Assembly (NCBI GenBank): GCA_010356995.1
Contig: ML996688.1
Span: 1,332,350 to 1,396,349, forward strand
Length of the DNA: 64,000 bases
Source of the DNA: Trichodelitschia bisporula
Taxonomy: Eukaryota > Ascomycota > Dothideomycetes > Phaeotrichales > Phaeotrichaceae
Direction: 5' to 3'
Shown here: piece after piece, positions 17,392 to 56,769 of the stretch
Layout of the letters: each line of letters begins with the position of its first letter
Position numbering within the stretch: position 1 is the first letter of the stretch
Position numbers and translations under genes: made by a program
The notes under the pieces: model-generated
The model's database searches: none
Seen by the model: only the letters and a program-made list of their open reading frames with translations
Told to the model about the DNA's origin: nothing

Positions 17392-18167
17392 TTACTCCAC
17401 ATCGCCCTTGCCCTCGAAATTCTCGCCGGCAACGAGGTCGGGGATGTCATCATCATCATCCTCGTCATCTTTCTTCTCACCCTCCCCACCCTCCTTCTTC
17501 TGCATGTTCTGGTACGACTCGGCCAGCTTGCGCAGCGACGCGAGCGAGTCGGGGCCGAGCTGGTTCAGGATGCCAGGGACGAGCTCAGTGAGTTCCTTGT
17601 CCTCACCGTTGCCGTAGATGGCGAAGGTGTTGGCGGGAACCGAGGCGTGGACTACGTCGCTTGTCAGAACCGCAAACCCCAGCAACCGTGGCCGATGCTC
17701 CAGCATCCGCACAGTCCAATCATGTATGAAGCTCACCCTTGGGGGCCGCGAAGTGAATCACGTTGCCATCGCTCTTGAACATGTTGACCTCCTCAATCGC
17801 CTGGATGGGCTGAACGTTCAGCTTCTTGAGCGCACCCTGCAGCTTCTTGTCGTCGGTGCCAGCGCTCTTGTGGACCTTCTTGACCTTCCGCCGAGGAGTG
17901 CCCTTGCCGCTACCGTTGTATTAGCTCGAGCACAGAGTCCCGCTGTCCGGGATGCGGGGAAGAGTTTGGAAAGAGGCATCGAGGGTGGTGCGGTGTCGAA
18001 CAGGAGAAGCGACTTACCCTACATGCCGAAGCAACGTTAGCAGCTACGCGACATAAAAGCTTTTTGCATCACAACATATGACAACATATGATTTGTAGAC
18101 GAGGGTAGAACGTGGACTCACCAATGCGGACATTGGCCTGCATGCGAGCCAACTTTGCTTGATCCAT
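17392..18167 (-). CDS. EGD1: nascent polypeptide-associated complex subunit beta
   Basis: Beta subunit of NAC, the ribosome-bound heterodimer that contacts nascent chains in the cytosol. The predicted protein has 159 aa. Exons are 18167-18122, 18018 (one nucleotide), 17909-17737 and 17651-17392. It carries the ribosome-binding motif RRKVKKVHK and the NAC domain ([15 protein letters not shown], then [16 protein letters not shown], then [20 protein letters not shown]), followed by an acidic tail (DDEDDDDD). The start [16 protein letters not shown] is typical. After RIG, joining exon 1 directly to 17909 is one base short of frame. Using the G at 18018, flanked by ATGTAG and GTAAGT, restores [11 protein letters not shown] exactly as in relatives. 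Both introns (103 and 108 nt) have branch sites (GCTAACG and GCTAATA) close to their acceptors. The total coding length is 480 nt. Identity is certain; the 1-nt exon is inference from frame. Confidence 0.96.
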
Positions 18168-19041: not shown

Positions 19042-20114
19042 TCAGATGTCGCGCCACGACCCCTGCGTCGCCCCTTGGCTATCGTACGGCCGTACCTGGC
19101 CGTTATATGGCCGCGCCTGGTTGCCATATGATTGCGGTGGCTGGTCATACGCAGGCTGAGAAATGCCGTTGTACGGCCGCGGCTGGTTCGGGTACGGCCT
19201 GGGTGATTGGGACGGTTGGTACGCGTTATAGGGTTCAGCGGGCGGTTCGTAGGCCGTTGACCCAGAGGGCGCATATCCAGGCGAACGTGGGGGGATGTAC
19301 GGATCCTTGCGACCGTACTGTTGGTTCCCGTATCCTTGCTGCACCGGATTCGGGGTCGCTCCGCGATATCCAGAGTGGCTATCGGCATGGGGACCCGCTG
19401 GTGGGCCGCCATATGGACTGTAACTACGCGGGGCACCGTTTCTGAGGAATGAGTCTTGTTCCTGAAAAGGCGAGCGCGGACCCGGAGACCTTGAGGGAGT
19501 CGGTGAGACGAGGTTAGGTGATGAGGCGGCACCTTGCTCTTGGGGCTTCAGCTTGTCTAATTCGTGGCTCTCTCCTTCCTCGAACACGGCGACCTTTTTG
19601 CTCGTCGCGTCTTGCCAGCTCGGCATTGCGGGCAGGGAATCTTCGTGCACCTTTCTTCCCGATTCAAACGTTGCGAATTGTGGGGGAGCTGAGTAGACGG
19701 GCGCGGGCGCGGAGTGGTATTGTTGATTGTACATGGGCGGTGGATGACCGTATGGGGTTGATGGCACGGAGTTGAGATGCTGGTGTCCTTTGTCCTTCTT
19801 TCCAGATCCACAGCAGCCGGCGCAGCAGCGAAAGCAGCAGCATGCGCACTCGGCCCCGCAGCAGAGGCACCGAGCGAGACACCAGAGCAGCGAGAGGGCG
19901 ATGAGGGAGACAACGATGATTGCGACAATCACTGGCCATCTGAGGGAGGTTAGCACTGCAACCTCGAACGCAAGCACAAGTGCGCATCGCAGAGCGGGGA
20001 CGAAGCTCACTTGCAATAGGTCTTCTCCATGCACTTGTCCCAAGACGAAAAAGTGTTTTTCACCCCCGTTGCAGCGCCGATGACGCCGTCCTGACGAATG
20101 TGTAGGATGGCCAT
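19042..20114 (-). CDS. fibroin-3-like single-pass membrane protein
   Basis: Predicted 333-aa protein. Exons are 20114-20011 and 19939-19042, with a 71-nt intron (GTGAGC donor, CTAAC branch, CAG acceptor). The N-terminus carries the conserved segment SSWDKCMEKTYCKWPVIVAI, which continues into one hydrophobic helix (about residues 36-55) and then a Cys-rich cluster (CLARCLCCGAECACCCFRCC) that is a good candidate for palmitoylation. The remaining 250 residues are disordered and rich in Pro, Gly, Tyr, Gln and Ser, with repeated RPYN and PYDQ units near the end. This architecture matches fungal proteins annotated as fibroin-3 related, whose function is not established. The alternative start in the longer exon 2 frame is rejected because the conserved SWDKCM motif lies in exon 1. 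Confidence 0.88.
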
Positions 20115-21093
20115 GCTGGCGAAGGTGGACTCTACTGACGACCAGCGACGAGTTTGGTGCAAGTAAAGTGGACTCTGGGAGAGTAGGAATGCTGTGAAAT
20201 GAGCGAGGTGATGAGGGAACGTTGCACGCCGTGACCCTCTACGCAACGTACCGTACAGTTGATAGGATGCGCGCTCAGTTGGAATCTGGGGACGAGGCTG
20301 CTCGGTCCGCCACTCAAGCGGCGGGAAGCAAGGACAAGTGTGGCCAACCCCTCCCCTCCCCTTCCCAATGGCTGACATAAGAAGTACAGTATCCTTGCTC
20401 ACTCGAAACACTCACCCTGCAACTCTTTCCCCTACAATTAATATGGTGACGCTTCATCCCATTTGCCAAACCATTGGTCTAAAGCAGAGCTAACTACTTA
20501 GCTCATCGACTTGGCCCTTTGACGTTCGACCGTCAAAAGCCAAAAAGGAGAAACCCCCTTTCCGGAGATGCGATCCGTACAAGTGCATATTTCACTTCAT
20601 ACGAGTCCAGATGGGTAGCCCGGGACATATGGAAGAAGGCTGTGATGCACCGCAGCCATTGTTACATCCATCTATAAATGCATCATTTTTGGCCCGTTAC
20701 CACCTGCAAGGCCGGCGCGGGAAGCCCCAGGCTGACGACAGATCGGAAGCGGGCCACCCGTGTCAGCACTTAGCGCACGTTTCTCCATCTTGAACGGCTT
20801 TTGTTCAAACTGAATGCGGACTACCGAGTGCGGGCAGCATACGTAGTAATATCTTAGCATCATGCAATTATGCTACGTAAACTTGGAACCGCAATTAGCT
20901 CAAGCAGCTTGCTTCTGGAAAAGCACCCCAGACAGGCTGTGCTTGATAAATCTACGCAATGGTCTTTCGTTGAACGTACATCATGACTGCTATGCATCCC
21001 CCCGCCAAATAAAGCCATGGCAGACAAGACCCTCGCGCCTACGTACGCCAGAGTCCCATGCAAAAGGCAAAAGACAAACTGAGCCACAACTAA
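20115..21093. other. intergenic, fibroin-like promoter and STI1 3' flank
   Basis: About 980 bp between two same-strand genes. It should contain the promoter of the fibroin-3-like gene (left part) and the 3' untranslated region of STI1 (right end). A TACCGTA motif occurs near 20245. No gene seen. Confidence 0.45.
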
Positions 21094-25482: not shown

Positions 25483-28400
25483 TCAATTCTTCAGCTCCGT
25501 GTTCATCATCGCCAGACCGCTGGGGGGTGCAGGAGTGGCAGTCCGACTTGGAGCCGCGCTGCGATTGTGGCTCATGTGGGCCTTAACGAGATGGCCCGCA
25601 GCAAGTGCCGCGCACAAACTAAGCTCTCCGGCAAGAGTGGCAGCGGCAATGACGCGTGCAAGCTGTCGAGCGTTTTCACCTGGGCTTGTTTGGTGCGCAC
25701 CACGAACACCAAGGAGGTCAAGCATGGCGGCCTGCGGCTCAAGGATTGTACCGCCACCGATAGTGCCAACTTCGATGCTAGGCATAGACACTGATGCGTG
25801 GAGATTGCCGTTCATGCTAGATGATGGTCAGAGACAACTCAAAGGCTGGGCGGGATGACCTACTTCTTCATGACTGTGATGCAGTTTGCGCTCTCGACAA
25901 CTTGTGCAGGATCTTGTCCAGTTGCCAGGAACATGGCCGCCACAATATTTGCAGCATGGGCATTGAAGCCACCAATACTGCCGGCCATGGCAGAGCCGAT
26001 CAGATTCTTGCTGATGTTCAACTCAACCAGAGCATCCACGCTGCTCTTGAGCACATCGCGAACCACATCGGCAGGAATCACGGCTTCAGCCACCACACTC
26101 TTGCCCCGGCCATCGACCCAGTTGATTGCGGCAGCTTTCTTATCGGTGCAAAAGTTTCCAGAGATCGTGATGATTGACATATCGCTGAAACCAGCTTCCG
26201 TCGCCATGACGTGGAGTGCGCGTTCAACGCCCTTAGAAATCATGTTCATTCCCATGGCGTCGCCGGTGGTAGTTTTGAACCGAATGTAGAGATTGGTGCC
26301 GGCAAGCGCAGTCTTCATGTTCTGCAACCGAGCGAAACGGCTGGTGGAGTTAAAAGCAGCCTTCATCACCTTCTGGCCCTCTTCGGAGTCGAGCCAGACC
26401 TTTGCATGGGCAGCGCGAGCAAGCGATTCAAATTGAACGCAGGGTCCACGGGTCATCCCATCTGCAGTGAGAACAGTGGTGGCACCACCTCCGAGATTGA
26501 TAGCCTTGCAGCCTCTGCTGGTGCTGGCAACCAGGACGCCTTCGGTGGTTGCCATTGGGATGAAGAAGTTGCGACCATCCATATTCAACGGACCAGCCAC
26601 ACCCAGGGGGAGCGGCAGGTATCCAACAACGTTCTCGCAGCAAGCGCCTGCGACACGTTCGTAATCATAGTTCCGATATGGAAGCTTGGAGTACTCGAGG
26701 AGTGTCGAGGTTTCACGGGTAGCATGGGTCCTGGAGACGACAGCCCGACGGATCTTGACGGCGCGGGTCATATCACCAAGAGTCTTTTCCAAGGCATAAC
26801 CTGGAATCTTGCCTCGGGTGGCCATGGCGATGAGCTCCTCATCGTTTAACTCCTTGGCACGCTTTTGCTTCAGTAAAGCCTCACACTCTTCCATAGTGCG
26901 ATTTGACTGCGCATCAGCAGTCCACGCCGGCTCGAGTTCATCTTCGGACTCAGGCAGTGGTACATGCTGTACAATGCGGGTCCTTGCTCCGGCTTCATGG
27001 GGGATCAAATTTCCGTTGGGGGGCGCCATGACTTCATTCTCCCTCGGTGGCCTCTCCGGGTAAGGCTCCTTGGTTGTCAATCGAGCAGCATTGAAAAGAT
27101 ACCCATTGAGAACCAAGCTCATCACAAGTGCGATAAAAATCCACTTGCTCAAAACTGGATCCTCAAAACTCTTCAGGAAGCTGCCAACCATGCTGGCACC
27201 CATAGCATCAAACGCATCCTCGCTGCTAGACTCCGCATAGTGGACGGACGGATATGCTAACTCGTACTTGATCGGCGGGACGACTGTCACCAGCGTCGAA
27301 CGCTTCGCTTCTTGAGCAGCGACAAGGATGGCATTCAAACCACTCCCGGCAACCTTAAAGGGATCCATTGGCGGATCTGCAAACCCCGCCAGACTAGATA
27401 AAGAAAGAGGAGTATTTTTCCGGAAAGGGATTGTGCAGAGGTTCAAAACATTGATGATGATGAAACCGGAGACCATCAACGCTTTGAACTTCGGGATACT
27501 GCTGTCGCGGAAGGCAGCACCAAAGACGGGATGCTCGGTGTTGGGATCCTTATCGGTCGTAGAGCCGGAGCCGACGCGAGGCCACTCATTTGTAGAAGCA
27601 ACATTTTCCGCGACCTTGCGGCTGATACCATCATCTTCCAGTGCTTTGCGTAACGCTACGTGACGCTTGATGCGGTTGATCTCCAACTTGATAGTTAAGA
27701 TTGCGGTGTAGAACGTGAATAGGAGCAGGCCGTCAAAGAAGAGGATCCAAGCGGCAAGGAAACAGAAAGGCCGAAGACCACCCTGGACTCCGGAAGCCGC
27801 CCCAGCGATCAGAACAGCGATTTCAATCAGATAGTCGCGCACAATCCGGCCCCCAAGCTCCTTGACGGCGGTTTGAACGGCATACTGGATAGTCGGCGGG
27901 CCGCTAGCTTCGTTGTTTGGGTTACCCTCGCGCTTTCGGTCAAGAGAATGTGCAAGCACAACCTTGGTAAGCGTGATGGGTTTCTCGAAGCCCACGACCG
28001 TGACCAAGAACGGGAGCCCCTCGGAAAGGAGAACCATGTTGATAGGCACACCTAGGCGATCAGTGACCAGCATTCCGAAGAGGAAAGCGAAGCTGGACGA
28101 AAAAAGGACAGTAGCGCCCAACCAGAAATTGGAGCCCAGTTTCCTCATCGAGATGAAGAGTGAGATGAACGTCAGGTGCATGGACAGGTAGCCCAAAACC
28201 ATCATGATGATGTCGAGCGTCTGAGCATTCTGCTAGGATTAACAACATGCATGCGCTCAAGCCGTCCTTCTCACCTTCAAAAGATCCAAAAATTTTGAGA
28301 CAGCGTCGGAAGCCCATGTCCGGACGCTCCTGGAGCCACTCCGCACCTTGGCCGCTTTCATTATCCACATCTTTTTCTCAGAAGTGTCATCCGAAGGAAC

Positions 28401-29006
28401 AGAGGCCTCGTCAAAGACGGGCATCTCCTGCGAGGCGGCCAAAAACCGAGGAAGTTCCGCATATTCCATGGACAGCGGAAGCGTGCTATCTTTAGAAACC
28501 GGTGACAGTGGGTTTGTGGACCGCGGGAGTATGTAGGCTGAGGAATTGGATGGAAACGTGACTGACTGCGGCTGAGGCGCTATTTGAGGAGAGCTTGAGA
28601 TGGAGTCCGGGAACACAAGCGTGACGAGGGCGATATGCTGGATTATAAAGTTAGTTTCTGCCGCGTAGCATCTCAGGAGACTCACACTGTCCGCTTGAAC
28701 TCCGTCCATCTCATGAGCCGTCCATTTCCAGCCATTGTCAGGACCAGCGTATAACTGCTTACTACCAACGAGCAGGGCTGAAGTGTCCACTTGCCCGGTT
28801 GCATGCGTGGAGGAAGGAGAGTCGAAAAGGGTAGTGTCAAGGAGCCCGAGGTATGTTGTGCTTGCGGCAATAGCTACCGTGAAGATGGTCCATAGAGGAT
28901 GTACGCAAGCGCGGCGTGAGAGGGACAGCAGGACAGGATTGAGCTGCCGTTCGGGCATCGACAGAGCGTCGCGGATGCGAATAGGTAGAATTGAAGCCCC
29001 AACCAT
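25483..29006 (-). CDS. HMG1: 3-hydroxy-3-methylglutaryl-CoA reductase
   Basis: Rate-limiting enzyme of the mevalonate and ergosterol pathway: HMG-CoA + 2 NADPH to mevalonate, anchored in the ER. The predicted protein has 1127 aa. Exons are 29006-28686, 28637-28275, 28229-25864 and 25816-25483. It has an N-terminal membrane region and lumenal loop (residues 1-230), then a sterol-sensing domain (from about 234, [20 protein letters not shown]), a linker, and a complete catalytic domain. Visible signatures are [26 protein letters not shown] with the catalytic Glu (about 791), [14 protein letters not shown] with Asp (about 886), the Lys in [21 protein letters not shown], and the terminal His in [13 protein letters not shown]. 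All catalytic residues appear intact. Intron 1 (48 nt) is in frame and stopless. Upstream (29007 on) no exact SREBP element was found. Confidence 0.98.
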
Positions 29007-31036
29007 GATGTCGTCTAGATGAGTGAGCTCTTGTTACCGCTGGGATAGTGGCGAGCACAGCCACTCTGGAGTATCCTCTTTTCGCTCTGCGCGTCGTTGT
29101 CCGTTCGAGTGTTGAGACTCGTGGGGATAGGCCAACTGGACAAAGAATTGACGGTTAAAGGGAATGACAGCAGTCCAGCATAAGGCAATGGCTAGTAGCG
29201 AAACTTTTTGCAAAGGGTATCAAGTCGGATCGTGGGCTCCGAAGGGACCAGTCGTTTTTTCGTGTAGCCGACGCAGGGTTGGGAAGGGGCCAAATCTAGG
29301 CGACGCCAGAACGGGAAGAAGGCGATCGGGTTGCAAGTCCAGAGGTTCAAGGCATGCGGGTGCAAACGGTCATGGTGTGTTCGGCTTCGGCTTCGGGGCT
29401 GGGGAGGTTTGAAGGGGTGAGGAAATTATTTTGCATTAATGCTGGGGCGGGAAGCTTGCGATAGGTACGGAGATAGCCAGGGAGGACGAGCGCGAAAGAA
29501 CTATGGGCCTATGAGGGAGAGGAGGAAACTAGCGGATAGGTGAAGGCCCCCGGTCAATGGATCTTCGATGTCGTAGTTGACTCCTGCACACCGCCCCACT
29601 GCTCGATAGGAGAAGAGAAGGTCACAATCAGAGCCAGACAGCAACTGATATTGCATCAGATGGAAAGAAGCCGGAGATTTTTATTCATGTTATTTTGGCA
29701 CTGCCCGCATTTTTCATTGTCCATCATTGTTTGGCTGCAATCAACTTTCTTGGGGTTGACATATAGATGACCGTGCACCCTTGCCAGTCGGGAGCCTGCA
29801 GGCCACAAGGCACAAGGTCTCAGCGAAAAAGTCATGTCCACCCCGGTTACATGACCTCTGCAAGAATTTGGTGATGGGAGGGAACATGACTTTTTTCGGA
29901 TAGCCCTTGGCTGGTGGCATGGCTCAACGCTCAGCCACGTTCAGCCACAGTCCAAATGGTTGAGACTGGGGAGGAGGCAATTGGGGGCAAAGCCCTGATC
30001 GGCTTCTTCGCCGAGCAGTATCACCACCACGGTTCAGTACCTGCTACGGTACTCCGTAAATTCTAACTTGTGCGCCTTGACCATTCGGACGGTCCAAGTT
30101 CATGTCGAACCGATTTCTACTACGGATGTACTACGGTACGTATTTACCGTATGTTCCGCCACCGTCACTTCGTCATCCGTCTATGATCCGTTCGGGAAGT
30201 GAAAAACTCTTCTTCCTGAGGAGATGGAGTCTTCGAACAAGAATACACCCTGATGGACCACTAACCCGTAGGACCACTAACGCGTACCCATACCCCAACC
30301 CGGATTTCTCGAGCTGAAGCGGGTTCATGCTGTAAGCGGGCAGAGTGTACGTCGTAAATTCCAAAGATTCACCCAAAAAAGTCGTGGCTGTCCTGTTTGG
30401 GCGTTTTTGCGGACGGGACGGCCACATAGTTTTCAGGTGGTCTTGGTCTGCCGCAGTCCATTAGGGATACCTTGGCAAACCGAACGGCTGGACAAGCCGC
30501 CCGTCGACGTCCTGTCCCACATCGAAGTACCTGGTGTACATATGTAGGACGCCCTGTGTAATTATCATTCTTCTATCAATTACAGGTTACGTCAGAAGCA
30601 TAGTCCTATGTAACACGGAACTCAGTACTGAGTTATTCCTGGGACTCCGCCAGCTTCGAATAGTTATCCATTGGTCATGTTGGCCGGCGTTTGGTGGAGA
30701 ACGGTTTCCCAGCCTCGGCAACGCCAACCCCGCGCTCTCCTCACCCTCCATCAGTCTCCATCGGTGCACAGGTCCAAGAGTACGGCTAGGAACTATTGAG
30801 CTGCTGATATGCAGCCATTAGAACCCCAGTATCTCCTATTCTTTCGCCGTGTTCGTCACGTATCTCTTTCATCAACTGCGTCTCCTTCCACCGGCCTCCT
30901 CACCTACAGCTCGCTGGTTCCGACATCGCATTCTCCCACATCCTTGTCCTTGCATCTGGGGAAGTCACGGCTTCCTTGCACCACAGCCCATACAAGAAGA
31001 AAGCGTGCGGTTCAAGGACCCGCATTCAAACGAGCA
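29007..31036. other. divergent intergenic region, HMG1 / Nudix gene
   Basis: About 2 kb between divergent genes, containing the HMG-CoA reductase promoter on the left and the Nudix gene promoter on the right. TACGGTA/TACCGTA motifs occur near 30050, 30122 and 30146. The frame of Nudix exon 1 is open upstream to an ATG at 30809, so the transcribed region may begin there. No other gene seen. Confidence 0.45.
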
Positions 31037-56677: not shown

Positions 56678-56769
56678 GCGTTGGTGGTTTAGTGGTAAAA
56701 TCCGTCGTTGCCATCCGAAGTCATTCGGGATGATTCGACGGGCCCCGGGTTCGATTCCCGGCCGACGCA
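56678..56769 (+). tRNA. tRNA-Gly (GCC) with a 21-nt intron
   Basis: The cloverleaf can be drawn by eye. The acceptor stem GCGTTGG pairs with CCGACGC (56762-56768), followed by discriminator A. The anticodon stem is CGTCG (56703-56707) with CGACG (56736-56740), and the loop TT-GCC-A-T places anticodon GCC at 56710-56712. The T arm is CCGGG-TTCGATT-CCCGG. An intron of 21 nt (56714-56734) sits after position 37, the canonical place, and is largely self-complementary (ATCCGAA against TTCGGGAT). The mature length is 71 nt, typical for tRNA-Gly. Internal promoter boxes (GGTTTAGTGG and GGTTCGATTCC) are present. Confidence 0.93.

Follow-up and report, generated by a model that had tools for sequence, protein, structure and literature searches.

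Can a single nucleotide serve as an exon in a fungal housekeeping gene? The question is raised by the gene for the beta subunit of the nascent polypeptide-associated complex (NAC-beta) in the window, i.e., the whole stretch of 64,000 nt that was analysed. Its first exon (18167–18122), joined directly to the next long exon (17909–17737), leaves the reading frame one base short; the missing base can be supplied by a lone G at 18018, flanked by ATGTAG on one side and GTAAGT on the other. As read from the DNA, this 1-nt exon is very probably real.

Gene structure and reading frame

The gene lies on the minus strand; its ATG is at 18167, its stop codon ends at 17392, and it has the following parts.

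18122..18167, minus strand: exon 1, 46 nt, ATG to ATT G; N-terminus matching BTF3
18019..18121, minus strand: putative intron 1, 103 nt, GTGAGT...TAG; the only consensus donor within it is its own 5' end
18036..18041, minus strand: branch motif GCTAAC of intron 1, fitting RYURAY
18018, minus strand: candidate 1-nt exon, G, at the second position of the Gly16 codon G-G-C
17910..18017, minus strand: putative intron 2, 108 nt, GTAAGT...TAG; own donor, branch motif and acceptor
17920..17925, minus strand: branch motif GCTAAT of intron 2, fitting RYURAY
17737..17909, minus strand: exon 3, encoding GKGTPRRK... into the NAC domain
17652..17736, minus strand: intron 3, 85 nt, GTGAGC...TAG; without an exact RYURAY match (TCTGAC by eye)
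17392..17651, minus strand: exon 4, with stop codon TAA

Exon 1 ends ...CGC ATT G at 18122 and is followed by donor GTGAGT at 18121; exon 3 opens C GGC AAG at 17909, after GGTAG, the last acceptor base being 17910. With the lone G included, the coding sequence comprises 480 nt including the stop (159 amino acids and stop codon), and the Gly16 codon GGC consists of G from exon 1, G18018 and C from exon 3; with G18018 skipped, the frame ends after 45 codons. The one base thus placed between AG and GT has good splice context on both sides, is needed for the frame and yields RIGGKG, as in BTF3. A sequence-only reading of this DNA had given the same picture, and it held on re-reading: donor GTGAGT at 18121, G18018 between ATGTAG and GTAAGT, and the acceptor at 17910; a frame one base short on direct joining; a coding region of 480 nt; and two fully canonical introns, each with consensus donor, branch motif and TAG acceptor. 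In the branch motifs, GCTAAC and GCTAAT, the branch A lies 18 and 11 nt before the intron end, respectively.

The protein carries a NAC domain (Pfam PF01849, residues 36–92, E 1.3e-23) and matches BTF3 over residues 1–153 among PDB sequences (E 2.4e-49); all seven PDB matches are labelled BTF3, chains that we take to be mammalian. With G18018 included, residues 1–120 align to BTF3 without a gap, and residues 13–20, VRIGGKGT, are identical in the two proteins. Judged by its NAC domain and full-length match, the gene product is the beta subunit of the nascent polypeptide-associated complex, a member of the NAC beta/BTF3 family. From anatomy, frame and protein match, all three of which were observed, we infer the splicing itself and the successive removal of the two introns.

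Splice signals compared with chance

The consensus applied was that published for Aspergillus nidulans (GURWGY, RYURAY and YAG for donor, branch and acceptor, respectively), as quoted in PMC12403724. The 212-nt interval between the long exons contains exactly two GTRWGY and two RYTRAY matches, one of each per intron; the two donors stand at the start of the interval and directly after the lone G. Four YAG are present, two of which remain unused in the model with the 1-nt exon.

Chance occurrence was estimated with 200,000 dinucleotide shuffles of the interval, the outermost 6 and 3 bases being fixed. A YAG-N-donor string arose in an allowed position in 762/200,000 shuffles and YAG-G-GTRWGY in 111/200,000; YAG-G-GTRWGY together with the branch motif of intron 1 was found in 13/200,000, and with both branch motifs in 1/200,000. 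An earlier test with self-chosen motifs gave acceptor, G, GTRAGT and the first branch motif in 2/100,000 shuffles, and both branch motifs in 0/100,000. Any middle exon of 1–31 nt with the right phase occurred in 0.095% of 20,000 shuffles. The bare string AGGGT, when at least 45 nt were required on each side of it, turned up fairly often (3.3% of 100,000 shuffles), so that the weight rests on donor, branch and base jointly.

Two other YAGGGTRWGY strings occur in the window, at 20416 on the minus strand (with a branch-like motif) and at 2675 on the plus strand (with none). The string at 20416 reads CAG-G-GTGAGT, and its upstream branch-like motif fits RYTRAY, not the stricter CTRAY; it lies upstream of the start codon as read for a neighbouring membrane-protein gene, and no coding exon was recognised around it. 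The same neighbour, a short Cys-rich membrane protein (MAILHIRQDG...), has a 71-nt intron at 20010–19940 on the minus strand, and its main open reading frame is without a Pfam match.

Introns 1 and 2 show no similarity as tandem copies (global score −1.5 versus a shuffle mean of −1.7; 228/500 shuffles scored at least as high), the predicted RNA structure of 17890–18140 is unremarkable (z −0.35; 72/200 shuffles equally stable), and no inverted repeats were found. The sole tandem repeat is a 10-nt one inside intron 1, ATCACAACAT / ATGACAACAT (plus-strand letters), at 18068–18087 of the window.

The Pfam scan covered 30 of the 105 listed open reading frames of the window. A gene for HMG-CoA reductase, whose product has HPIH and sterol-sensing domains, was recognised at 25860–29033 on the minus strand, its two open reading frames being split by a short stretch that resembles an ordinary intron with an off-consensus donor. 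One tRNA gene of 92 bases, with an intron or a long variable arm, was found by ARAGORN at 56678–56769 on the plus strand.

Intron lengths in the window

A first, strict intron scan of the window kept 8 candidates. A looser scan gave 21, of 46–323 nt, 6 of which were frame-checked (57, 85, 65, 50, 48 and 46 nt); introns of 71 and 45 nt were added to these. The eight other frame-checked introns of the window, in the genes for an STI1-like protein (three), a fasciclin, an ABC transporter, a FAD-binding protein and a membrane protein, and as intron 3 of the NAC gene, thus measure 45, 46, 48, 50, 57, 65, 71 and 85 nt (median 53.5). A single intron of 212 nt would exceed even the longest of these about 2.5-fold and would therefore be an outlier; among the 15 remaining, unchecked candidates three exceed 212 nt (238, 244 and 323 nt). 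Introns 1 and 2 (103 and 108 nt) are themselves each longer than all eight.

Competing gene models

To rank gene models, their translations were compared with BTF3 residues 1–73. One-intron models ran from GT or GC to AG over 40–320 nt; two-intron models ran from GT to AG, each intron having at least 40 nt and the middle exon 0–30 nt; in both, the frame had to fit the rest of the gene. Among the open models enumerated (612 two-intron, 32 single-intron), the model with the 1-nt exon had the top score, 233. The runner-up, at 222, was the best one-intron model, with donor GTCCAC and an Asp inserted in RIG-D-GKGT. Taking scores, signals and frame together, we hold it highly probable that G18018 is a true exon of 1 nt, and that the canonical introns on its two sides, of 103 and 108 nt, are removed successively.

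Four other readings of the locus were weighed. The first, an assembly error, supposes that one base is missing beside a single intron of about 212 nt (e.g., an extra G opening exon 3) and that the inner sites are there by chance. The frame deficit is indeed exactly one base, and sequencing errors commonly take the form of a base lost from a short run of G. Against this, a consensus acceptor-G-donor with its branch motif, in the right place and with the right base, would be left to a chance of 13/200,000, or 1/200,000 with both branch motifs, and an intron of that length would far exceed the eight checked ones (45–85 nt). We regard such an error as quite improbable.

The runner-up of the scoring corresponds to a single 208-nt intron from a weak donor, TGA|GTCCAC at 18117, to 17910. 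It is in frame and open, and is the best GT–AG single-intron model (222 versus 233), but its donor does not fit GTRWGY, its extra Asp interrupts a stretch that is identical between the window protein and BTF3, and it ignores four consensus elements; it is very improbable.

A single 211-nt intron with non-canonical ends, either TG..AG (18120–17910) or GT..TA (18121–17911), would yield exactly the same coding sequence in either form, and one of the two forms is probably what a splice aligner that does not allow for 1-nt exons would output. It leaves the inner canonical sites unexplained, and we know of no regular U2 introns with such ends, so that this reading is barely credible. Hardly tenable either is a stwintron, with intron 1 interrupting a splice element that belongs to intron 2, and obliged to leave first: two adjacent fungal introns in need of two splicing reactions, and a one-base frame error from the outermost sites that resembles stwintron mis-splicing (PMC9024468), speak for it, but none of the splice elements (donor, branch, acceptor) is interrupted, since both GTAAGT and TAG are intact, and the [D1,2] type needs AG followed directly by TRWGY, whereas AG-G-GTAAGT stands here. 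The kinship to the stwintron idea proposed in the sequence-only reading is given up on the same ground; both donors, both branch motifs and both acceptors are intact, and the locus lies outside the stwintron definition.

One mRNA from three possible Gs

The mature ATTG-G-CGGC is identical whether its G derives from 18121, 18018 or 17910, and removal of 18120–17910 (TG..AG) or of 18121–17911 (GT..TA) yields an identical mRNA. Since three Gs give the same mRNA, cDNA alone cannot prove the 1-nt exon; the junction ATTGGCGGC would confirm the mRNA, without telling which G it carries. Such identity may hide 1-nt exons in annotation: gene finders and splice aligners may misreport a gene of this kind, its mRNA being that of a single odd-ended intron. 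Exons of less than 3 nt, when sought in short reads, can moreover suffer high false-positive rates, according to PMC8831610.

Route and order of splicing

On the preferred reading, that of the 1-nt exon, the two flanking introns would be ordinary U2 introns, each recognised alone through intron definition, by its own donor, branch and acceptor, and the Gly16 codon GGC would be assembled from three exons. U1 on the donor of intron 2 and the 3' splice-site factors on the acceptor of intron 1 would overlap. Because the factors of both sites cannot bind together, the introns should leave one after the other; removal would be successive, as both spliceosomes could not occupy the 1-nt exon together. 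One-at-a-time removal is, we think, a sound inference, and this part of the ordered removal proposed earlier stands. Its other part, in which the context of the second donor arises through the first splice, finds no support: the unspliced transcript already has GTAAGT and TAG in full, and the trinucleotide preceding the donor of intron 2 changes from AGG to TGG on removal of intron 1, which is no gain. The bases after the acceptor of intron 1 change from GG to GC on removal of intron 2. All splice sites being intact in the pre-mRNA, the order is not fixed by the sequence, and either order would be possible on motif grounds. On kinetic grounds, co-transcriptional splicing would be expected to take out intron 1 before intron 2. 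Intron definition is described as the rule in Ascomycota (PMC12403724); a 9-nt exon of potato invertase, as cited in PMC4674806, has its second flanking intron removed first.

Possible consequence and origin

Four mis-spliced forms were translated. Retention of intron 2 gives 16 residues; retention of intron 1, or of both introns, gives 32; skipping of the G gives 45. The forms with a kept intron stop before the RRK stretch, presumably the ribosome-binding motif, and the form without the G loses it. Since all four forms truncate the protein to 16–45 residues, two-step splicing around a constitutive 1-nt exon in a housekeeping gene might act as a built-in valve for NAC dosage, the arrangement having originated by insertion of a second intron one base off; as a whole, this is a speculative reading and rather unlikely.

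In such an origin, an older intron would have stood after ATTGG (the present intron 2) or after ATTG (the present intron 1), and the second would have been inserted one base away. Insertion one base off would keep the coding sequence intact and require no frameshifted intermediate. NAC-beta is conserved and probably strongly expressed. If transcripts confirm the 1-nt exon, RNA intermediates should be easy to catch in a strongly expressed gene, and the order of splicing around an exon too small for recognition becomes directly testable. The rescue path proposed for CYP621A differs, involving a frameshifted intermediate (PMC12940212).

Orthologues were sought with the NAC-beta protein and with a two-row alignment, each against both of two contig collections (viral and prokaryote genome contigs, without fungal genomes); 16, 65, 95 and 82 pattern matches were obtained, with no confirmed relative in these collections.

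Comparison with known systems

Titles and abstract openings of the papers found in the open-access literature yielded no 1-nt exon in a NAC gene, and no report on EGD1 or NAC with an intron, microexon or stwintron of this kind. Single-base exons of mitochondria are organellar and not spliceosomal, unlike the NAC-beta case. An exon of one base is named in the title on placozoan cox1 (PMC5436844); for Ophiostoma mitogenomes (PMC12308204), likewise organellar, single-base exons appear only as a search-term match.

In the recursive splicing of Drosophila (PMC8605326), an acceptor adjoins a donor at the ratchet points, as here, but the mRNA retains no base from between them, and the site requires a cryptic exon; in NAC-beta one base is kept and the introns are short. 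The stwintrons of ascomycetes, mostly [D1,2], resemble the present case in that two canonical introns leave by consecutive reactions (PMC9024468, PMC12403724, PMC6616335) and use of the outermost sites results in a one-base frame error (PMC9024468); they differ in that an internal intron interrupts a splice element (PMC9024468, PMC12403724, PMC6616335), whereas in NAC-beta each intron is complete and lies beside the other.

The nuclear 1-nt exons found in the literature are those of APC11 (PMC4674806) and VPS55 (PMC8831610) in plants and of CYP621A in Fusarium (PMC12940212). VPS55 of land plants has a single-nucleotide exon between two introns and a donor GTRAGT, as here; it is a plant gene, supported by RNA-seq and RT-PCR and alternatively spliced in some plants (PMC8831610). 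APC11 of Arabidopsis has a constitutive single-nucleotide exon between two introns, for which successive removal was likewise proposed; the base is A, the organism a plant, and the exon was demonstrated by mutagenesis, cDNA, RNA-seq and RT-PCR (PMC4674806).

CYP621A of Fusarium is likewise a fungal nuclear gene with a lone G in AGGGT, where one base restores the frame and the G takes the second position of a codon for glycine, itself part of a conserved motif (PMC12940212). It encodes a P450 called rarely expressed by its authors, versus a ribosome-associated housekeeping factor here; the interval there measures 139 nt in all (F. graminearum), versus 212 nt; and its exon is documented by 20 orthologues and by 18 RNA reads, obtained from two species (PMC12940212), whereas the NAC-beta exon is read from DNA. 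Its AGGGT arrangement, backed by RNA reads, is counted in favour of the NAC-beta exon (PMC12940212). The latter looks like a rare new example of a very small known class, not a new kind of thing; if transcripts confirm it, NAC-beta would join the nuclear genes of this class and, going by the open-access literature found, be the second from fungi.
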